From Cyanobium sp. M30B3 (GTDB lineage: Bacteria > Cyanobacteriota > Cyanobacteriia > PCC-6307 > Cyanobiaceae): a stretch of DNA of 64,000 bases. Shown one piece after another: positions 364 through 29,652 of this stretch (its first letter is position 1; each line of letters starts with the position of its first letter). Location of the stretch: positions 2,604,001-2,668,000 of the forward strand of contig CP073761.1 in the NCBI GenBank assembly GCA_018399015.1, read 5' to 3'. The notes under the pieces are model-generated. The model did no database searches, had not been told where the DNA came from, and was given only the letters and a program-made list of their open reading frames with translations. A program made the translations under genes and the position numbers.

Positions 364-1638
364 ATGGCGGCAGCGCCCGGCCTGGCCCTGGGGGTGGACC
401 TGGGCAGCAGCGGCATGCGGATTGCCCTGGCAACCCCAGCAGGTGGGCGGATCGGGGAATGGGGCGGCGCCTATCCACGCCCATTCGTTGATCCGCACGG
501 CTGGCGCGAGGGGCTGATCACCCTCACCCGGCAACTGCCACCCCAGCTCCGCCAACAGGTGGGTGCCATCGCCATCGACGGCACCTCCGGCACCTTGCTG
601 CTCTGCCGCCCCAATGGCGACCTGGCCGCCGATCCGCTGCACCAGGCCCTGCCTTACCACCAGGCCTGCCCGGCGCAGGCCGCCGCAGCCCAGGCCATCG
701 CCGGGGGCGGATCGGCGGCCGGAGCCAGCGGCAGCCTGGCCCGTGCCCTGGCCCTGCTGGGGGCCGCCACAGCGGCCGGGCAGCCGGGCCCCTGGCTGCT
801 GCGCCATCAGGCCGACTGGCTGATGGGCTGGCTGCTGGGCGACTGGCGCTGGGGGGAGGAGGGCAACAACCTGCGTCTGGGCTGGGATCTGCAGGCGCGC
901 TGCTGGCGTGGAGCCATTGGCGAGCAGCCCTGGAGCGGCGGCCTGCCTGCGGTGCGCTCCAGCGGAGAGATGCTCGGCACCCTGCAGCCCAGCACAGCCA
1001 AGAGGCTGGGGCTCCCCCTGGCCTGCCGCGTGGTGGCGGGCAGCACGGATGCCAATGCGGCCGTGCTGGCGGCGGATCCCCAGCTCCGGGACGGCGTCGC
1101 CGTGCTGGGCACCACCCTGGTGCTCAAACAGTGGAGCCCGCGGCCGATCGAGGGGCCCGGCGTGAGCTGCCACCGGCTGGCCGGCCGCTGGCTGGTGGGC
1201 GGCGCCTCCAACGCCGGGGCCGGCGTGCTGCGGCGGTTCTACAACGACGCCCAACTCAGGGAGCTGAGCCGGCAGATCGACCCCAGTCGCCCCAGTGGCC
1301 TGCAGCTGCGCCCCCTGCCGCGCCGGGGCGAGCGGTTCCCGGTGGACGACCCCAGCCTGGAGCCCGTGCTGGAGCCCCGCCCCGTGAGCGATGTGCGCTA
1401 CCTGCAGGGGCTGCTGGAGGGCCTGGCCCGCATTGAGGCGGCGGGCTGGCAGCGCCTGCAGTCCCTGGGCGCCCCCGCGGTGGAACGGGTGATCAGCGTG
1501 GGCGGCGGGGCGGTGAACCCCCAGTGGCGGCACATCCGTGCCCAGCAACTGGGCGGCCTGCCGGTGCTCAACCGGCCTGGCTTGAGTGCCGCCCTGGGCA
1601 TGGCCAGACTGGCCGCAACCGCACTCTCGAGGCCATGA
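364..1638 (+). CDS. FGGY-family carbohydrate kinase
   Basis: The protein of about 424 residues starts at ATG 364, 16 bases after metK. The N-terminal GVDLGSSGMRIAL is the phosphate-1 motif of the actin-like ATPase fold, DGTSGTLLL follows near residue 75, and GSTDANAA and SVGGGAVNPQWRHI match the second FGGY lobe. These kinases phosphorylate sugars. Cyanobacterial relatives have been described as D-ribulose/D-xylulose-type kinases, but the substrate cannot be read from the sequence. The stop overlaps the next start (ATGA at 1635-1638), suggesting translational coupling. Confidence 0.85.
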   Translation: MAAAPGLALGVDLGSSGMRIALATPAGGRIGEWGGAYPRPFVDPHGWREGLITLTRQLPPQLRQQVGAIAIDGTSGTLLLCRPNGDLAADPLHQALPYHQACPAQAAAAQAIAGGGSAAGASGSLARALALLGAATAAGQPGPWLLRHQADWLMGWLLGDWRWGEEGNNLRLGWDLQARCWRGAIGEQPWSGGLPAVRSSGEMLGTLQPSTAKRLGLPLACRVVAGSTDANAAVLAADPQLRDGVAVLGTTLVLKQWSPRPIEGPGVSCHRLAGRWLVGGASNAGAGVLRRFYNDAQLRELSRQIDPSRPSGLQLRPLPRRGERFPVDDPSLEPVLEPRPVSDVRYLQGLLEGLARIEAAGWQRLQSLGAPAVERVISVGGGAVNPQWRHIRAQQLGGLPVLNRPGLSAALGMARLAATALSRP

Positions 1639-1754
1639 AGGATCAGCTACGCACCTGGCTGTCGATGGCCCTGTTCGTGGTGCTGGCCGGCTATGTGAGC
1701 TTCAGCGCCATCCGGCTGGGCTGGCTGCTGTGGCTGCGCTACGCGGGCAGCTGA
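1635..1754 (+). CDS. small single-span membrane protein
   Basis: A 39-residue ORF whose ATG overlaps the TGA of the sugar kinase gene. After a short polar N-terminus (MKDQLRTW) it has one hydrophobic stretch, LSMALFVVLAGYVSF, continuing to LGWLLWLRY, so it should be a small inner or thylakoid membrane protein. I do not recognise a family. Support comes from the ATGA overlap and the coherent transmembrane composition. It could still be a chance ORF. Confidence 0.5.
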   Translation: MKDQLRTWLSMALFVVLAGYVSFSAIRLGWLLWLRYAGS

Positions 1755-1794
1755 GGCCCATTCCAGAATCAGCCTGCCACCTCCCCCCTCTGCC

Positions 1795-2055
1795 ATGGCC
1801 GCCGACCCCCTCACCCCCGCCGTGAGCGATCGGATCTGTCGTCACATGAACGACGATCACCCTGAGGCCGTGCTGGCCTACGCCCGCCACTACGGATCCA
1901 TCAGCGCGGCGCAGCAGGCCCGCATGCTGACCATCCGTCCCGAGGCGATGGAGCTGGAGGTGGATGGAGCCCACGTGGAGGTGGCCTTTGACCACAAGCT
2001 CAGCGACAGCGAGGACGCCCACCGCACCCTGGTGGCCATGCTGCGGGCCATGTAG
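1795..2055 (+). CDS. DUF2470 domain protein
   Basis: An 86-residue protein. RICRHMNDDHPEAVLAYARH is the hallmark start of the DUF2470 fold, followed by the two-strand segment around MELEVDGAHVEVAFDHKL and an amphipathic C-terminal helix. DUF2470 is a small domain also found fused to FMN-binding, heme-oxygenase-like proteins, and its role as a stand-alone protein is not established. It starts at ATG 1795 and ends with TAG. The position between a sugar kinase gene and a comF-like gene gives no functional clue. Confidence 0.8.
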   Translation: MAADPLTPAVSDRICRHMNDDHPEAVLAYARHYGSISAAQQARMLTIRPEAMELEVDGAHVEVAFDHKLSDSEDAHRTLVAMLRAM

Positions 2056-2103
2056 GCGAGGCAATGCTGAGGGCAGGATTGCCTGCCTCCATTGCCTGCC
2101 TCC

Positions 2104-2745
2104 ATGGCCGCCCAGCCCAGCCCAGCGTCTCCACGCCCCGCGCAGGCCGCCCCGTGCTGGCTGAATCCGCTCCACTGGCTGCTGCCCCCGCTGCCAGCCC
2201 CCTGCCCCCTGCCACCCCGGGGGCTGCGGGGGTTCACCCCCCTGCCCTGGTGGGCCGCCGTCAGCTATTCAGGCCAGGGCCGCAGGGCGCTGCTGCGGCT
2301 TCGCCAACAGCCCCAGGCAACACGCCTGGCTCCCCTGCTGCCGGGACTGGTGCAGCGGCTGCAGCAGCTGGATCGACAGCCCCTGCTGCTGCCGATCCCC
2401 AGCTGGAAGCGCCGGGCCAATCCGTTGCCTGGACTGCTGGCGCGCCAGCTCCAGTCACGGCTGCGCTGGCCCTGCCGGCCAGCCCTGCTCAGCCGCAGCC
2501 ATCCGGTGCTGGGCCAGCACCGCCTGAACCGCGAGCTGCGCTGGCAGAACCAGCAAGGCGCCTTCACCTGCCTGCACCGCCCCGGCCACGACACACTGCC
2601 TGCCGGCTGCCGCAGCGTGCTGCTGGTGGATGACATCCTCACCACTGGAGCCACGGCCTGCGCTGCAGCCGCGGCCCTGGAAGCGATGGGCTGGCGGGTG
2701 GTGGGGATGGCCTGCCTGGGGCGCACGCCGCCGGACAGACGGTGA
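2104..2745 (+). CDS. ComF/GntX-family phosphoribosyltransferase-like protein
   Basis: A protein of about 213 residues starting at ATG 2104. The C-terminal VLLVDDILTTGATACAAA is the PRPP-binding loop of type I phosphoribosyltransferases, and the middle carries LGQHRLNRELRWQNQQGAF, typical of ComF proteins. The usual N-terminal zinc ribbon of ComF is replaced by a Pro/Leu-rich stretch, as I recall for other picocyanobacterial members. ComF proteins are linked to DNA uptake in competent bacteria. Whether it acts so here is inference. Confidence 0.8.
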   Translation: MAAQPSPASPRPAQAAPCWLNPLHWLLPPLPAPCPLPPRGLRGFTPLPWWAAVSYSGQGRRALLRLRQQPQATRLAPLLPGLVQRLQQLDRQPLLLPIPSWKRRANPLPGLLARQLQSRLRWPCRPALLSRSHPVLGQHRLNRELRWQNQQGAFTCLHRPGHDTLPAGCRSVLLVDDILTTGATACAAAAALEAMGWRVVGMACLGRTPPDRR

Positions 2746-6715: not shown

Positions 6716-7234
6716 ATGTTTGACGCCTTCACAAAGGTGGTCGCCCAGGCTGATGCCCGTGGCGAATTCATCAACGCCGGTCAGCTCGACGCCCTCGGCG
6801 CCATGGTGGCCGAGAGCAACAAGCGTATGGATGCCGTGAACCGCATCACCTCGAACGCGTCTAGCATCGTCACCAACGCTGCCCGCAGTCTCTTCGAGGC
6901 CCAACCTGCCCTGACAGCCCCGGGTGGCAACGCCTACACCAGCCGCCGCATGGCTGCTTGCCTGCGCGACATGGAGATCATCCTCCGCTACGTCACGTAC
7001 TCCGTGTTCAACGGCGACGCCTCCGTGCTGGAAGACCGCTGCCTGAACGGCCTGCGCGAGACCTACCTGGCCCTCGGCGTGCCCGGCGCTTCCGTCGCAG
7101 AAGGCGTCCGTAAGATGAAAGAATCCGCCATCTCGATCGCAAATGATCGCAACGGCATTACCGCCGGCGACTGCTCTGCACTGATGAGCGAGATCGGCAC
7201 CTACTTCGATCGTGCCGCTGCGGCAGTAGCCTAA
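6716..7234 (+). CDS. cpcB: C-phycocyanin beta subunit, copy 1
   Basis: A 172-residue CpcB with the bilin Cys-82 in [20 protein letters not shown], Cys-153 in [15 protein letters not shown] and the Asn-72 region [10 protein letters not shown] intact, so it should fold and bind two bilins. Its N-terminus [18 protein letters not shown] is normal, unlike copy 2. The first two-thirds is nearly identical at base level to copy 2 (including a 62-base exact match from about 6801), whereas the last third and cpcA copy 1 use AT-richer codons. That mosaic suggests gene conversion. It forms the alpha-beta unit with the downstream cpcA. Confidence 0.97.
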
Positions 7235-7272: not shown

Positions 7273-7761
7273 ATGAAGACCCCTCTCACCGAAGCTGTTT
7301 CAGCAGCTGATTCCCAAGGCCGCTTTCTGAGCAACACTGAGATCAACTCGGCATTCGGTCGATACAACCGTGCAAAGAGCGCCCTCGCAGCAGCAAAGGG
7401 ATTAACAGCGAATGCGGACAGTCTTGTCAATGGTGCTGCACAAGCCGTTTACAGCAAGTTCCCTTACACCACCCAGATGCAGGGTGCCAACTACGCTGCT
7501 GATGCCCGTGGCAAAGCAAAATGCAGCCGTGATATCGGCTACTACCTGAGAATGGTTACGTATTGCCTCGTAGCTGGTGGCACTGGGCCGATGGATGAGT
7601 ATCTGATTGCTGGCATTGATGAAATCAACCGTGCCTTTGAGCTGTCTCCTTCGTGGTACGTAGAAGCCCTCAATTATATTAAAGCCAATCATGGACTTTC
7701 TGGTGAGCCAGCCACTGAAGCCAATAACTACTTGGACTATGCAATCAACGCCCTAGTTTGA
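7273..7761 (+). CDS. cpcA: C-phycocyanin alpha subunit, copy 1
   Basis: A 162-residue CpcA starting at ATG 7273, 38 bases after cpc[21 protein letters not shown] carries the single bilin Cys-84, and [18 protein letters not shown] is the typical C-terminal helix pair. The protein is close to copy 2, but its codons are AT-richer (for example GCA, ATT, GAA). The ATG is preceded by ACTCCC rather than a purine-rich site. Bilin attachment would need the CpcE/F lyase encoded at 29.8-31.3 kb. Confidence 0.97.
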
Positions 7762-7788: not shown

Positions 7789-7816
7789 GGGCTCCCCATG
7801 TGGGAGCCCTTTCTTT
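7789..7816 (+). terminator. terminator of cpcBA copy 1
   Basis: GGGCTCCC (7789-7796) and GGGAGCCC (7802-7809) form a perfect 8-bp stem with a 5-base loop, followed by TTTCTTTT. Confidence 0.85.
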
Positions 7817-7988: not shown

Positions 7989-8438
7989 TTGTCTTTACCT
8001 CATCTTTTCATTAACATGACGTTCCAGCAGCCCGAGCAGATCATACACTTAATAAAGCAAGCAGGAGAAGGAGCGGAGATTATATACAACTCAGGAGCTA
8101 TGCGTCTTCGCATTGACCTCAGGAGCGACGACATATCGCTTTGGAGATCTCATTTCTTGACTGATCCCAGTGAAGCTAATCTTCTCGTTGCATGCGAGGA
8201 TGGCGATGGCGAGTTAAAGCAGACGCGCCTCACCTGGGTCGTAGGTTCTTCTATTCGGACAACTTTTGTGTCTGGAAAGAAAGAAGCCAAGGCGCTTTTG
8301 GAAGCAATCGGTGTAGTAGCCCAGCTAGCCAGCCTAGCTTGCGATCGCTGCTATGGATTAGGCGAATCGACTGTATGGGCATTCTACTTGGACCGCAACA
8401 AGACATTGTCCGCAACTCCACTCGGCTCATGTTCATAA
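7989..8438 (+). CDS. unknown protein, first gene of an AT-rich phycobilisome-region operon
   Basis: The frame encodes up to 149 residues (an internal ATG at 8016 would give 140). I recognise no family. It has an N-terminal helical segment (PEQIIHLIKQAGEGAEIIYN), alternating strand-like stretches (AMRLRIDLRSDDISLW, TRLTWVVGSSIRTTFVSG), and a Cys-containing stretch ACDRCYGLG near the end, which might be an alpha/beta or small-barrel fold. The stop overlaps the next gene's start by 10 bases, so the two are probably translated together. Base composition is far lower in GC than the flanking core genes. A lyase, chaperone or regulator role next to the phycobiliprotein-like gene is only a guess. Confidence 0.65.
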   Translation: MSLPHLFINMTFQQPEQIIHLIKQAGEGAEIIYNSGAMRLRIDLRSDDISLWRSHFLTDPSEANLLVACEDGDGELKQTRLTWVVGSSIRTTFVSGKKEAKALLEAIGVVAQLASLACDRCYGLGESTVWAFYLDRNKTLSATPLGSCS

Positions 8439-9022
8439 CAACAGAAACCGAATATAGAGCGAAGATTAATCTTCTTGTCAGGCAGGCTAATGTATGCGGA
8501 CTTGGCTCAAGAGAGACGATACCCGTTGAAGTTCGAACGATTATCAGGACTGCTGATTCAGCAAGGCGTCCACTGAGCCTAAACGAGATAGAATATATCT
8601 GTGCGATTTGCAAAGGTTCAGAGAAAGCTGTTATCGAGTTAATCGAGAAGTCGCCTAAGATGATTGCTGAAGCGAGCGCGTCGCTACTACACAAGCAACC
8701 AGGATTGATAGCGCAAGGGGGAGAGCTTTTTCCTGAGCACAGAGCAGCGGCCTGCTGGAGAGACTGCGAGCAATTTATCAGAGTAGTGACTTATGGGGTG
8801 GCGTCTAATTGCACAGTAATTACCGACAAGGCAGGTATGAAATCATTATTGGAACTCTATATGGTATTGGGAGTTCCCGTAAAAGCGCTTTTGCACGTCT
8901 TGACAGAATTAAAGAATCTCTCAGTCAATAGACTTAGAAGATCAGGCTATGAGCGTGAAAGTACCTGCGCTCAAGGTGCGTTTGATGACTTGATATGCGC
9001 GCTAAACCCAAAGAGTGAATGA
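8429..9022 (+). CDS. divergent phycobiliprotein-like protein
   Basis: A 197-residue protein from ATG 8429, inside the end of the preceding gene. From about residue 40 it aligns along the whole phycobiliprotein fold: LLHKQPGLIAQGGELFPEHR matches the [12 protein letters not shown] region of CpcB, and AAACWRDCEQFIRVVTYGV keeps the bilin Cys (residue 109) with the Arg-Asp pair. LELYMVLGVPVKALLHVL matches the following helix, and Cys-180 falls near the place of Cys-153. The beta-type Asn-72 is replaced by Glu-99, and there is an extra N-terminal segment of about 38 residues with its own Cys. It is not CpcA/B, CpeA/B or any allophycocyanin I know. It may bind a bilin or act as a regulator or assembly factor. 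Confidence 0.75.
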   Translation: MFITTETEYRAKINLLVRQANVCGLGSRETIPVEVRTIIRTADSARRPLSLNEIEYICAICKGSEKAVIELIEKSPKMIAEASASLLHKQPGLIAQGGELFPEHRAAACWRDCEQFIRVVTYGVASNCTVITDKAGMKSLLELYMVLGVPVKALLHVLTELKNLSVNRLRRSGYERESTCAQGAFDDLICALNPKSE

Positions 9023-9861
9023 CTACTCGAGAACTACCATCAGGCATTAAGGTTGTAGCAGGACATTCGGCCAACCCGATTTGTCCTCTAGAATGCAAGA
9101 GGTATAAGAAATTCTTAAGACAACCAGAAAGAACTCTTCCTATGCATCCTGAAGCCCAACTCAAAATCACTTTGTTACCAGAGAATCCACAGCAATGGCA
9201 TCCCCCAGAGACCTGCGAACCTGAAATGGTCAATCAAGTGCCGCTTGATGCCCGCGGAGCCCGTTGGTCACATCGAGTACTAACCCCTCTAGACCTAAGA
9301 GAATCTAAACTATGCCGAGCTGATCTAAGGGGCGCTGATCTTTCTGGCTGCCAGCTTGATGGCTGCAATCTCAAGTTAGCTCGTTATGATATGAACAGCA
9401 AGTTTCCCGAGGGATTTAATCAATTCAGATCTGGAGCAGTCGGACCCAAGGCTTATCTGAATGGGGCATTTTGTAATGGTGCCGACTTAAGGAGTATGGA
9501 CTTAACTGAAAGTAGTTTCATGGGGGCCTATCTCAGTGGCTGCGACCTTAGTGGCTCTGTGCTAGTTGGTGCATGCTTGGTGGGGGCTGATCTTCGCTTT
9601 GCAAAGCTACAAGGGTGCAGCTGTAAAGGAGCACGCTTTACGGGTAGCCAGCTGAATCAGGCCGATTTACGCGCGGCTGATTTCAGTAACACATCCATAG
9701 AGACTGCAGAGAGCATTCAGGGGGCTGATTTTAGTTGGGCCTCCGGGATCAATTCTGAGCAACTGACAAACCTTTTATCACGGCCACACACCGAGCTTGA
9801 TTGCTGGAACCCATTCACTCGTACGACAACTCGGGCCTCTCTGGAGTCGCTTCGGTGCTGA
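9019..9861 (+). CDS. pentapeptide-repeat protein
   Basis: A 280-residue protein whose ATG overlaps the preceding TGA (ATGA at 9019-9022), making it the third gene of the operon. Two blocks of A(D/N)LxX repeats are visible: LDLRESKLCRADLRGADLSG near residues 90-120, and a longer block from about 143 to 222 including GADLRSMDLTESSFMGAYLS and GACLVGADLRFAKLQG. Such repeats fold as a right-handed quadrilateral beta-helix that mediates protein contacts. The N-terminal 80 residues have no repeat and no recognised domain. The repeats are rich in Cys. Function is unknown. The operon suggests a link to the phycobiliprotein-like protein. Confidence 0.85.
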   Translation: MTTRELPSGIKVVAGHSANPICPLECKRYKKFLRQPERTLPMHPEAQLKITLLPENPQQWHPPETCEPEMVNQVPLDARGARWSHRVLTPLDLRESKLCRADLRGADLSGCQLDGCNLKLARYDMNSKFPEGFNQFRSGAVGPKAYLNGAFCNGADLRSMDLTESSFMGAYLSGCDLSGSVLVGACLVGADLRFAKLQGCSCKGARFTGSQLNQADLRAADFSNTSIETAESIQGADFSWASGINSEQLTNLLSRPHTELDCWNPFTRTTTRASLESLRC

Positions 9862-10037: not shown

Positions 10038-10919
10038 ATGCCATTCGGCCCCGCCTCGATTCTCGGTGTTGAACGCTTCGCTCAAGACTGCGAGGCACCC
10101 CTGGAGTTGGCGCCTGGTGATGATGACGCCACCAAGGAAGCTCTGATCCGTGCTGTATACAAGCAGGTCCTCGGAAATGCTTATGTCATGGACAGCGAGC
10201 GTCAGCTGGTTGCCGAATCACAATTCAAATTAGGCGAGATCAGCGTGCGTGAATTCGTGCGCACCATTGCAAAAAGTGAACTCTATCGCACACGTTTTTT
10301 TGATGCGTGCGCTCGATACCGCTATATAGAACTGGCGTTTCGCCATTTACTTGGGCGTGCGCCCGCTAGCTTTGAGGAAATGCGCCGCCACGCAGAGCGA
10401 CTTGATGCAAGCGGCTATGAATCAGACATCGACAGTTTTCTCGACTCTGATGAATACCAGAACACCTTTGGTGAATGGACAGTCCCGTACCAGCGGGGCT
10501 GGAGGACTGAATCCTGCGCCACTCTCCAGGAGTTCACATGGTCGTTCCAGCTACTGCGGGGAAACAGCAGCAGCAGCCTGAAGGGAAACCTCGCTGGGAT
10601 CCAGAGTCGGCTGGGAGGTGCAGCCTACCAAAACCGCCCACTCCCGGTGGTGGCACCGTCATCGATCGATTCACAGGGATGGAGTTTTCGTCCATCACCA
10701 AACCTCGGCGATGCCGCTACTCGCAGTGGCGTTGGCGCAGGGCAAGAAGGAAAAGTCTATCGGGTTGAAGTCACAGCATATCGTGCAAATAATGTGCGGC
10801 GTGTCTCCCGATACACGAAGTCCAATCGTGTCTATTTTGTTCCCTACAACAAGCTATCAGAGCAGTATCAGCGCATTCATCGTGAGGGAGGAAAAATAGC
10901 TAGTATTACCCCTGCTTGA
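10038..10919 (+). CDS. cpeC: phycoerythrin-associated rod linker CpeC
   Basis: A 293-residue linker. MPFGPASILGVERFA is a typical CpeC start, followed by the linker domain with ALIRAVYKQVLGNAYVMDSE and ISVREFVRTIAKSELYRTRF (residues about 35-165). A CpcD-type tail of about 55 residues includes VYRVEVTAYRA and ends HREGGKIASITPA. It would join phycoerythrin hexamers in the rod and link them inward. The ATG follows CGCACCC with no clear Shine-Dalgarno site. Base composition is intermediate. All reading-frame features are intact, unlike cpcC. Confidence 0.88.
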   Translation: MPFGPASILGVERFAQDCEAPLELAPGDDDATKEALIRAVYKQVLGNAYVMDSERQLVAESQFKLGEISVREFVRTIAKSELYRTRFFDACARYRYIELAFRHLLGRAPASFEEMRRHAERLDASGYESDIDSFLDSDEYQNTFGEWTVPYQRGWRTESCATLQEFTWSFQLLRGNSSSSLKGNLAGIQSRLGGAAYQNRPLPVVAPSSIDSQGWSFRPSPNLGDAATRSGVGAGQEGKVYRVEVTAYRANNVRRVSRYTKSNRVYFVPYNKLSEQYQRIHREGGKIASITPA

Positions 10920-19170: not shown

Positions 19171-19695
<525 letters not shown>

Positions 19696-19725: not shown

Positions 19726-20647
<922 letters not shown>

Positions 20648-20933: not shown

Positions 20934-23045
<2,112 letters not shown>

Positions 23046-23052
23046 TCCGAGA

Positions 23053-24240
23053 TCAAAGCAGGCCGAGCGTATGGAGGGGGCCCCGTCCGCTGATCAGCTC
23101 CAGCAGGAAAGCGGAAAAACCCACCATCGCCAAGCGACCATTCCAAACCTCCGAGCTGTTGTTCCAGCCCCAGGCCCACTTGTCCTGGGGATAGAGCTTC
23201 ACCTTGGTGGGCAGGGCCGCCGCCTGATCCAGGTTCACTTCCGGGCCTTCGAGGGCGTGTTGCACCAGGTGGGCGAGGCCATCGATGAAGGCGGGGCTGG
23301 TGTCCAGCGCCGGCACGCGCCGGAAGTTGGTGATGCCTGCTTCGGTGGCGATCTCGCGGTACTCGATGTCGATCTCTTCGAGCGTTTCGATGTGCTCGCT
23401 CACGAAACTGATCGGCACCACCACCAGGTCCTTCACCCCCGATTCCCCCAGTTCATGCAGGGCGTCATCGGTGTAGGGCTTCAGCCACTCCACCGGGCCG
23501 ACGCGGCTCTGATAGGCGAGGGTGAACGGGTTGGCGTGGCCGAGATCCCGCTCCAGCCGCTCCATGATCAGCCGGGCGCAAGCCTCGATCTCCTGCTGGT
23601 AGGGATCGCCCGCCTCCTCCACATAGCTCTTGGGGACGCCGTGGGCGCTGAAGAACACATGGGCCGTGGCGGGTTCAGGGCAGGCGCTGATCTCGCGGGC
23701 GATCAACTCGGCCATGGCGCCGATGTAGCCGGGGTCGTCGTAGTAGCTGCGGATGCAGCGGATCGGCAGGCGGGCGAAGGCGGGATCGGCCTGGCGCAGG
23801 CGCTGCAGCTCGCGGAAGCTGGAGCCGCTGGTGCTGATCGAGAAGTGGGGGTAGAGCGGCAGCACCACCACCTGATCGATGCCGTCGGCCTTGATTTCGG
23901 CCACGGCCGACTCGGTGAACGGATGCCAGTAGCGCATCGCCACGTAGCTGGTGGCCTCGATGCCCCGCTGGCGCAGGGTGCTCTGCAGCTCCCGGGCCTG
24001 CTGCTCGGTGATGCGCCGCAGCGGAGAACCGCCGCCGATCGAGCGGTAGGCCTGCTGCGACTTGCCGGCCCGCAGGCTGCTGACCAACCAGGCCAGGGGC
24101 TTCTGCAGGGCCGGGTTCGGCAGCCGGATGATCTCCGGATCGGCGAACAGGTTGTAGAGGAAGGGACCGACGTCCTGGATGCGCTCAGGGCCGCCGAGGT
24201 TCAGCAACAGCACGCCGACCTTGCCGCACACCTTGGACAT
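23053..24240 (-). CDS. hemH: ferrochelatase with C-terminal chlorophyll-binding-like helix
   Basis: A 395-residue ferrochelatase. [20 protein letters not shown], the catalytic region [20 protein letters not shown] and [20 protein letters not shown] are family signatures. The last 40 residues ([29 protein letters not shown]) form the CAB-type transmembrane tail known from cyanobacterial HemH. It inserts iron into protoporphyrin IX, giving heme, the substrate of heme oxygenase and so of the bilin pathway encoded next door. Confidence 0.95.
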
Positions 24241-26589: not shown

Positions 26590-26826
26590 CGCCATGGGAG
26601 CCCCGCAATGGCCCACGGCCTCTGCGCAGTTGTGGATCGCCTGCCTGTCCTGCAACAGCCCTGCAGGAAGCTGGTCCTGGAGGGGACACCAGCACGGTGC
26701 CCGCCTCAGCCCCCAATCAATCGCGAGCTGGTACGGAAGATTAAGTTCTTTATGGTTTTTACTTGCCCCAAGCCTGAGCCCATCGCAGCAGTCAATACTT
26801 TCTTTCGTTTTCGTTCTGTCTGCCCA

Positions 26827-27585
26827 GTGACCCTGCCTGTTCTGGCCACCAAACCTCTCACCAACAACGCCAGGGTCAGCAATTTTCTGGCAGCCAGCGA
26901 AGAGACCTCTCGCCAGTTTGGTCGGCAGGCCAGTCAGCTTGATGGAGCTGCCGCCGATGCCCTGATCGAGCAGGCCTATCGCCAGGTGTACTTCCACGCC
27001 TTCAAGCGCGACCGCGATGCGATGCTCGAGTCGCAGCTGCGCTCCGGCCAGATCAGCACCCGCGAGTTCGTGCGCCAACTGCTGCGCTCGGAGAAATTCC
27101 GCAACGACTTTTACCGCTGCAATAGCAATTACCGCGTGGTGGAACAGGTGGTTGGCCGGGTGCTGGGCCGACCGGTGCACGGCCAGCAGGAACGCATCGC
27201 CTGGTCGATCGTGATCGCGGAGCAAGGGCTGCCGGCCTTCATCGATGCTCTGATCGATTCAACGGAATATCTGGAAACCTTCGGGGAAGACCTTGTGCCC
27301 TATCAACGCGCCCGGGTGCTGGCTGGCCAGTCGGTGGGCACAATCCCCTTCAACCAGCAAGCCCCCCGCTACGACGCCTACTGGCGTGACACCATGGCCG
27401 TTCGCGCTCCCGGGGTCGGCAGTGGCAGCTGGGCAGGCTGGCCGCGTCCGGCTTGGCTGGTCAACCAGCCCACCCCGGCTGTGCAGAACGCTTGGCGGTA
27501 TTTTGTGGCGACTGGCGGCTTCGTGCTGACCGGACTCGTGCTCTGGATAGCCCTGGTGATGTTGAGTACGGGAGCTAAGGGCTAA
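26827..27585 (+). CDS. cpcL: membrane-anchored rod linker CpcL (CpcG2-type)
   Basis: A 252-residue linker from GTG 26827 (TLPVLATKPLTNNARVSNFL). The linker domain spans about 40-170: LIEQAYRQVYFHAFKRDRDA, ISTREFVRQLLRSEKFRNDF, YRVVEQVVGRVLGRPV, and EYLETFGEDLVPYQRARVLA. PRYDAYWRDTM is typical of CpcG proteins. Instead of the core-binding tail it ends in a hydrophobic segment, FVATGGFVLTGLVLWIALVM, a transmembrane anchor. CpcL rods attach to the membrane without an allophycocyanin core and feed photosystem I in other cyanobacteria. The GTG fits homologous starts. No ATG is available nearby. Confidence 0.85.
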   Translation: MTLPVLATKPLTNNARVSNFLAASEETSRQFGRQASQLDGAAADALIEQAYRQVYFHAFKRDRDAMLESQLRSGQISTREFVRQLLRSEKFRNDFYRCNSNYRVVEQVVGRVLGRPVHGQQERIAWSIVIAEQGLPAFIDALIDSTEYLETFGEDLVPYQRARVLAGQSVGTIPFNQQAPRYDAYWRDTMAVRAPGVGSGSWAGWPRPAWLVNQPTPAVQNAWRYFVATGGFVLTGLVLWIALVMLSTGAKG

Positions 27586-28583: not shown

Positions 28584-29123
28584 ATGACAAGAACGTTCTC
28601 CGCAGAGTGTGACGTGTTTGCCAAGGTGGTCGCCCAGGCCGACGCCCGCGGCGAATTCATCAACGCCGGTCAGATCGACGCTCTCGCCGCCATGGTGGCC
28701 GAGAGCAACAAGCGTATGGATGCCGTGAACCGCATCACCTCGAACGCGTCCAAGATCGTCACCAACGCTGCCCGCGATCTGTTCGAGGCCCAGCCCGCCC
28801 TGATCGCCCCCGGCGGCAACGCTTACACCCATCGCCGCATGGCCGCCTGCCTGCGCGACATGGAGATCATCCTCCGCTACGTCACCTACGCCGTGTTCAC
28901 CGGTGACGCTTCCGTGCTGGAAGACCGCTGCCTCAACGGCCTGCGCGAGACCTACCTGGCTCTCGGCGTCCCCGGCGCTTCCGTGGCTGAAGGCGTTCGC
29001 AAAATGAAGGACGCTGCCGTCGCCATCGCCAACGACCGCAACGGCATCACCCCCGGCGACTGCTCCGCTCTGATGAGCGAAATCGGCACCTACTTCGACC
29101 GCGCCGCCGCCGCTGTCGGCTGA
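28584..29123 (+). CDS. cpcB: C-phycocyanin beta subunit, copy 2, with altered N-terminus
   Basis: CpcB with both bilin Cys ([20 protein letters not shown] and [17 protein letters not shown]) and normal Asn-72. Codons are GC-rich like the core genome. The canonical start MFDVFAKVV is missing. The codons before DVFAKVV read GAG-TGT, so the nearest ATG (28584) gives [20 protein letters not shown], about 8 residues longer. A GTG at 28614 would instead remove the first three residues. The altered 5' end may reflect a recombination junction next to ho1 or a local sequence error. Confidence 0.92.
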
Positions 29124-29163
29124 GCGACCTGAATTCACGCTTCAATCCTTCTCCTTCCATCCC

Positions 29164-29652
29164 ATGAAGACCCCCCTCACCGAAGCCGTCGCCGCCGCTG
29201 ATTCCCAGGGCCGCTTCCTCTCCAACACCGAGCTCAACGCCGCTTTCGGTCGTTTCGAGCGCGCCAAGAACGCCCTCGAGGCCGCCAAGGTGCTCACCGC
29301 CAAGGCCGATGAGCTGGTGAACGGCGCCGCCCAGGCCGTTTACAACAAGTTCCCCTACACCACCCAGATGCAGGGGGCCAACTACGCCTCCGACGCCCGC
29401 GGCAAGGCCAAGTGCGCCCGTGACATCGGTTACTACCTGCGCATGGTCACCTACTGCCTCGTGGCTGGTGGCACCGGCCCCATGGATGAGTACCTGATCG
29501 CCGGTCTCGATGAGATCAACCGCGCCTTCGAACTCTCCCCCTCCTGGTACGTCGAGGCCCTGAACTACATCAAGGCCAACCACGGCATCTCCGGCGACCC
29601 CGGTGTGATCGCCAACAACTACATCGACTACGCCATCGGCGCCCTCGTCTGA
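29164..29652 (+). CDS. cpcA: C-phycocyanin alpha subunit, copy 2
   Basis: A 162-residue CpcA, ATG preceded by [28 protein letters not shown] holds Cys-84, and the C-terminal helices are intact. Protein identity with copy 1 is high (differences such as [20 protein letters not shown] versus [20 protein letters not shown]), but codon choice is strongly GC-biased here. It is followed by a strong terminator and then the lyase genes cpcE and cpcF, the classic phycocyanin operon order. Confidence 0.97.

Follow-up and report, generated by a model that had tools for sequence, protein, structure and literature searches.

AplA and the pentapeptide-repeat protein Unk5 are almost confined to phycoerythrin-gene carriers among sampled cyanobacteria

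What is a single phycobiliprotein gene, set between a small gene and a pentapeptide-repeat gene, doing in the phycobilisome cluster of a picocyanobacterium? The question is raised by three plus-strand genes downstream of cpcBA, unk4, aplA and unk5, in a stretch of 64,000 nucleotides of Cyanobium sp. M30B3 (contig CP073761.1, positions 2,604,001 to 2,668,000). We call this whole stretch the window and give positions in its coordinates unless stated otherwise. A sequence-only reading, made from the letters alone, had described three overlapping genes coding for an unknown protein, a 197-residue protein of phycobiliprotein fold and a Cys-rich pentapeptide-repeat protein, and had placed the second of them in no known class. 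The genes are as follows.

8016..8438, plus strand: unk4, 140 codons, conserved; all copies found here come from the picocyanobacterial family
8429..9022, plus strand: aplA, allophycocyanin-like phycobiliprotein of 197 residues with bilin Cys-109 and an N-terminal extension
9019..9861, plus strand: unk5, pentapeptide-repeat protein with a conserved non-repeat C-terminus; true start likely near 9142

Class of the middle protein

The middle protein is almost certainly the AplA of type IIB phycobilisome clusters, the link to the published protein being made by name and gene order. Its residues 38-192 matched PF00502 with an E-value of 3.2e-27 (95.8 bits against a cut-off of 22.2), and this match, together with those of its fold model presented below, bore out the assignment to the phycobiliproteins. 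In contrast, the protein matched six NCBIfam antenna families, in each case far below the cut-off, the best being ApcA with 69.3 against 270 bits, and it reached none of the equivalog score cut-offs of ApcA, ApcB, CpcA, CpcB, CpeA and CpeB. Its identity to all A1 members except the two nearest relatives was 29-46%. The genome of the host codes for 14 proteins with PF00502 matches, of which one is AplA-type and the rest score like antenna subunits or pieces of ApcE (the gene at genome positions 1687441-1687923 was kept outside the tree described next).

In a tree of 91 rows and 154 columns, a single branch with a support of 100/100 split 38 AplA-type from 53 classical rows, the latter comprising ApcA, ApcB, ApcD, ApcF, CpcA, CpcB, CpeA and CpeB. 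The 154 well-filled columns had been picked so as to leave out the N-terminal extension, and a tree of the same 91 rows built on 195 columns gave the same split with a support of 100. The AplA rows represent 22 of the 27 picocyanobacterial and 16 of the 20 other proteins, after removal of seven of 60 loci as near-copies or second AplA copies, and the class names of the rows derive from sequence motifs and best BLAST matches rather than from curated records. The separating branch is 1.7 changes per column long, and for both trees the program issued a long-branch warning. The five ApcD and six ApcF rows formed groups of their own, apart from AplA. AplA thus lies outside all of the classical classes tested, and the trees reject an identity with ApcD or ApcF, so that the sequence-only reading was right to set the protein apart from the known antenna subunits.

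The part of that reading that fell is the claim of a class unknown to science, since AplA is a published class of the type IIB cluster in the relevant sections of Six 2007 (PMC2246261), Larsson 2014 (PMC4139726) and PMC6363710. AplA is also labelled in picocyanobacterial clusters in parts of PMC6776005 and PMC5478717. The passages of Six 2007 (PMC2246261) on AplA class it as a photosensor whose function is unknown and describe the homologue in Fremyella as unlinked to phycobilisomes.

Both the operon and the AplA class are therefore already known, AplA having been named since 2004. The 2004 Fremyella paper that reportedly named the class is said to describe a protein with a covalently bound chromophore that is not found in phycobilisomes, with an N-terminal extension of about 28 residues beyond allophycocyanin. 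The proteins analysed here and the AplA class of Fremyella diplosiphon are alike in their phycobiliprotein domain, their N-terminal extension and a bilin Cys accompanied by Arg-Asp, but the picocyanobacterial members differ by an extra Cys at position +4. With ApcA, ApcD, ApcF and the other antenna subunits, AplA has the fold and the bilin site in common, and it differs from them by its separate tree group and its scores below their cut-offs. As a separate observation, the AplA-type gene at locus L100 (genome G229) stands on a long branch of the tree, and its role could be a different one.

Residues, fold and selection

The bilin Cys (Cys-109 in the window) is present in all 47 AplA-type proteins aligned, followed by Trp-110 in 47 of 47 compared with 0 of 53 classical proteins, by Arg-111 in 46 and by Asp-112 in 47. 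At the position of the methylated Asn-72, AplA of the window has Glu, and none of the 47 proteins has Asn. The residues that the sequence-only reading had singled out at the bilin site and at Asn-72 are therefore present as described. A Cys four residues past the bilin Cys characterizes the picocyanobacterial proteins (27 of 27, versus 1 of 20 others). The second Cys noted earlier, Cys-180, also exists, but it sits two to three residues off the column of Cys-153, near which it had been placed (alignment A3), and the position is occupied by Cys in only 7 of the 27 picocyanobacterial and none of the 20 other proteins. A second bilin site at Cys-180 was therefore rejected as a family feature.

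The N-terminal extension, first put at about 38 residues, is real and amounts to some 30 residues more than in CpcB: 42 residues precede the shared Asp-43 in AplA of the window and 12 in its CpcB. The corresponding lengths, approximate because in relatives a script picked the start close to the expected site, are 34-44 in the 27 picocyanobacterial proteins and 35-56 in the 20 others. Asp-43, Arg-118 and Tyr-122, which we take to be the classical alpha-beta contact residues, are mostly kept in AplA-type proteins.

An AlphaFold model of AplA had a mean predicted local distance difference test score (pLDDT) of 78.9, with averages of 45 to 55 over the first 30 residues. It matched allophycocyanin, phycocyanin and phycoerythrin chains (best Foldseek E-value 1.1e-5; VIA-align Z up to 18.2 over 162 residues at 4.2 A). 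When the AplA profile was compared with the PDB, the matches listed all began at profile position 30 or beyond.

The operon is present in relatives, and aplA shows no signs of decay. Between aplA and its counterpart at the related locus L039, nonsynonymous divergence (dN) was 0.147 and synonymous divergence (dS) 0.796, giving a dN/dS of ~0.18, whereas cpcA yielded a dN of 0.003 and a dS of 0.236; aplA thus changes much faster. As far as sequence comparison can tell, the ratio speaks for aplA being kept by selection, and decay of the gene is disfavoured by both the ratio and the conservation of residues.

Distribution and co-occurrence with phycoerythrin

The third protein, Unk5, matched PF00805 (E-value 5.8e-27) and has 13 Cys in 280 residues, in agreement with its initial description as a Cys-rich pentapeptide-repeat protein. 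We named it by its pentapeptide repeats and its location in the phycoerythrin rod region. Its relatives adjoin phycoerythrin genes (alignment A4, 19 proteins). A passage of Six 2007 (PMC2246261) describes unk5 as coding for a pentapeptide-repeat protein, generally downstream of cpcGII and distributed like unk4; the part of PMC11633204 that deals with a pentapeptide protein is not pertinent to Unk5.

A clear AplA relative was found in 49 of the 201 genomes of the window's family, own genome included (E < 1e-21; next 1.3e-20). At 29 loci of other genomes (L010-L038), unk4 was found in 29 and a pentapeptide gene in 22, in stretches that for all but two of the loci are ~3.5 kb long, so that a gene farther away would be missed. 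In several of these loci, a CpcG/CpcL-type linker gene is inserted between aplA and the pentapeptide gene.

Across 338 genomes of the class, AplA was counted in 88, Unk5 in 97 and CpeB in 99. AplA and CpeB occurred together in 80 genomes, Unk5 and CpeB in 87, AplA and Unk5 in 82 and all three in 78, and 225 had none of them. AplA was counted at an E-value of 1e-30 or better (next 4e-28), so that weaker hits and fragments, for instance in G266, G443, G347 and G450, were scored as absent. The thresholds were 1e-70 for CpeB, with 98 of the 99 genomes also above the curated cut-off, and 1e-50 for Unk5, with partial proteins in G437 and G472. When presences were shuffled within families, 0 of 20,000 shuffles reached the observed overlap for each of the three pairs; this test drew on 13 families with 225 of the 338 genomes and included neither the window's own family nor any of the others.

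Among the 82 genomes with both proteins, AplA and Unk5 are encoded on one contig in 55 and within 5 kb of each other in 48, 31 of them outside the window's family. The 20 AplA stretches from outside the family include Unk5 in 12 cases and pebA in 13 (identity of at least 42%), and in one of them (L084) pebA, pebB and aplA are consecutive on one strand.

Fourteen genomes have AplA or Unk5 and no CpeB match, and eight of these have at least two bilin reductases. They include eight AplA genomes. In four of these, G280, G393, G457 and G476, between two and four bilin reductases were counted, one of those in G393 being a fragment; these four probably make phycoerythrobilin, their CpeB being either lost or absent from the assembly. 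The 10 Unk5 genomes without a CpeB match comprise eight with at least two reductases (fragments counted), G437 with one and G222 with none. Conversely, 12 CpeB genomes lack an Unk5 match, eight of which belong to the window's family and are 1.7 to 2.6 Mb in size. Overall, the agreement with phycoerythrin is somewhat tighter for Unk5 than for AplA.

For marine Synechococcus, the distribution given in Six 2007 (PMC2246261) is that of unk4 and unk5 in phycoerythrin strains and of aplA in phycoerythrin II strains. What looks less known is that AplA and Unk5 are almost confined to carriers of phycoerythrin genes across the sampled cyanobacteria. This class-wide link was not found in the open-licence literature beyond the cluster papers, coverage of that literature being incomplete; its searchable part yielded no AplA function later than Six 2007, and a term search of the texts of PMC10151467 and PMC9916406 found no mention of Apl. 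The tight link of AplA with phycoerythrin genes and with one particular pentapeptide protein, in many cyanobacterial families, amounts to a testable claim on how phycoerythrin is made or controlled, and it draws attention to unk5, a gene of the phycoerythrin system that has been little noticed.

Possible functions of AplA and Unk5

The reading that we favour, with a probability of about 0.45, is that AplA together with Unk5 is a covalent bilin-binding accessory of phycoerythrin production, a role of which we infer the biochemical step. Three points favour it: AplA has no partner subunit, it tracks the phycoerythrin genes, and some phycoerythrin genomes gave no AplA match. We rank this reading above a light sensor and a rare antenna subunit. 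AplA would bind one bilin covalently at Cys-109 and, having no alpha or beta partner, would stay outside the antenna rods. It might then act in soluble form, either helping assembly or serving as a chaperone while loaded with bilin, or gauging the bilin supply, with Unk5 as its putative scaffold. The sequence-only reading had proposed a bilin-binding sensor or an assembly factor among other roles, and both are plausible.

A more specific version is doubtful, if possible: AplA and Unk5 might form an old phycoerythrin-specific module, a bilin-loaded mimic with a pentapeptide scaffold in which Unk5 is near obligatory, that would charge or assemble phycoerythrin. Picocyanobacteria might have added Unk4 and the second AplA Cys near the bilin pocket, which could tune or double-link the bilin.

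Several observations weigh against an accessory role in phycoerythrin production. Nineteen of the 99 CpeB genomes have no AplA match (nine in the window's family, nine with Unk5), so that phycoerythrin can be made without AplA. Four genomes, G210, G229, G277 and G311, have AplA and a single bilin reductase and no CpeB or Unk5 match, so that AplA is independent of phycoerythrobilin there. Of the 82 genomes with both proteins, 27 have AplA and Unk5 on different contigs, and in G343 and G470 more than 4 Mb separates the two on one contig. With the contact residues mostly kept, AplA may pair with another subunit. As for the counts themselves, the AplA cut-off was chosen after the gap in E-values had been seen, and the searches for AplA and CpeB scored no more than nine candidates in each genome and the one for Unk5 no more than seven, which makes absences weaker evidence than presences.

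Alternatively, AplA might be a photoreceptor outside the phycobilisome, whose bilin would be switched by light and whose extension, or Unk4 or Unk5, would relay the signal to the control of phycoerythrin genes. The bilin site common to all 47 proteins, the kept extension and the additional Cys at +4 in the 27 picocyanobacterial proteins would suit such a sensor, but Pfam and NCBIfam searches matched no output domain in AplA, Unk4 or Unk5, and we consider it unlikely. Quite improbable is a rare antenna subunit standing in for a single alpha or beta chain at a particular site of phycocyanin or phycoerythrin rods. Such a subunit would account for the phycobiliprotein fold, the mostly conserved Asp-43, Arg-118 and Tyr-122 and the rod linkers among the gene neighbours of aplA; it is difficult to reconcile with a separate group at the end of a branch of 1.7 changes per column, with the low identity (29-46%) to all but the two nearest A1 relatives, with the lack of Asn at the methylated-Asn position in all 47 proteins and with the Fremyella homologue not being phycobilisome-linked in the passage of Six 2007 (PMC2246261). 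Finally, a functionless, drifting leftover of gene duplication, to which the low G+C content (48% versus 65% in the window), the fast divergence and the 19 CpeB genomes without AplA could be attributed, is very improbable given a dN/dS of ~0.18, the presence of both the bilin Cys and the Asp in all 47 proteins and the within-family co-occurrence with phycoerythrin.

Gene boundaries and the flanking protein Unk4

The initial description of three overlapping plus-strand genes needs amendment at two places. The 10-base overlap of unk4 and aplA (8429-8438) is as described, and its presence in type IIB relatives suggests coupled translation. However, unk4 starts at the ATG at 8016 and not at the TTG at 7989: in an alignment with 21 relatives, these begin at the ATG, which makes the TTG superfluous. 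Likewise, the ATGA at 9019 is present in the letters, but the overlap of aplA and unk5 is not conserved, and a coupling of the two genes through it was rejected. In L039 and L041, stops close the pentapeptide frame just upstream of the conserved part, so that translation of unk5 probably begins near 9142. A start equivalent to 9142 is backed by L041, and that ATG is absent from L010 and L039.

The operon (8016-9861) has a G+C content of 48%, compared with 65% for the window, which agrees with the proposal, in a section of PMC4139726, that type IIB clusters were transferred horizontally. One further element lies upstream of it.

7789..7809, plus strand: terminator-like stem after cpcA, 8 pairs of which 7 are G-C, with a T-rich tail

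Read-through from cpcBA into the operon is less likely given this stem, but the scan was at chance level, with one terminator-like site found in the region against 2.3 expected.

Unk4 of the window had no Pfam or NCBIfam match, no Pfam family was common to 22 Unk4 proteins, and a PDB search returned no relative (best E-value 0.49). Its model had a mean pLDDT of 60.5. Unk4 was found in 20 of the 338 class genomes, all in the window's family, two of the copies being broken or in pieces. Its name reflects the position of its gene directly upstream of aplA; unk4 is upstream of aplA in phycoerythrin strains in the corresponding part of Six 2007 (PMC2246261). At L038 (G096; 1375-2589, minus strand), Unk4 and AplA lie in a single open frame of 405 codons, which may be a natural fusion, a hint of joint action, or an assembly error. 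A metagenome-assembled Cyanobium contig (L042, 11283-11747) codes for an Unk4 copy of 140 residues that is 100% identical to that of the window, and the contig ends there.

The surrounding type IIB phycobilisome cluster

The operon is embedded in a phycobilisome cluster with the following features.

6716..7234, plus strand: cpcB (TIGR01339, 320.9 bits, above cut-off)
7273..7761, plus strand: cpcA (TIGR01338, 297.8 bits, above cut-off), which gives the cpcA-unk4 order
10038..10919, plus strand: rod linker with PBS_linker_poly and CpcD domains (PF00427, PF01383)
19171-19665, minus strand: cpeA, phycoerythrin subunit (cpeA/cpeB: NF058506 and NF058508, above cut-off)
19726-20286, minus strand: cpeB, phycoerythrin subunit (same two models)
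21550..23045, plus strand: pebA and pebB, phycoerythrobilin synthesis (NF009720 and NF009722, above cut-off)
23053..24240, minus strand: hemH, on the opposite strand after pebAB (TIGR00109, above cut-off)
26608-27585: CpcG-type linker with a hydrophobic C-terminal stretch
28608-29652: second cpcBA copy inside the cluster

The hydrophobic C-terminus of the linker at 26608-27585 presumably corresponds to that of CpcL-type linkers, which it resembles. Other neighbours in the cluster are rod linkers, proteins of the CpeS and CpeT families and a heme oxygenase. The host genome is 3.18 Mb long and has a third cpcB outside the cluster (genome positions 1111886-1112377).

The cluster shows the cpcA-unk4 order, aplA downstream of cpcBA and hemH opposite pebAB. 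These are traits of type IIB clusters in the pertinent sections of Larsson 2014 (PMC4139726) for the first, of PMC6363710 for the second and of both papers for the third; unk5, as well as a CpcG-type linker and a heme oxygenase toward the far end, are also common to the window and the type IIB cluster. In contrast, a second cpcBA, which the window has at 28608-29652, was looked for without success in Larsson 2014 (PMC4139726); the Black Sea strains of PMC6776005, as presented in part of that paper, have four phycocyanin subunits inside the cluster and may be compared with it. The unk4-aplA-cpcGII-unk5 arrangement of marine Synechococcus (Six 2007) consists of the same kinds of genes, aplA being immediately preceded by unk4 and having a pentapeptide gene close by, but the host and its nearest relatives (L010-L017 and L039) have no cpcG between aplA and unk5, and unk4 follows cpcA.

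Lastly, the survey brought up divergent proteins with a phycobilisome domain (E-values of 1e-29 to 1e-16) whose scores are unlike those of both the antenna subunits and AplA of the same genomes. They are encoded at G291:C2:406943-407380, G291:C2:2499906-2500316, G489:C1:4607412-4607822 and G470:C1:4468319-4468741.
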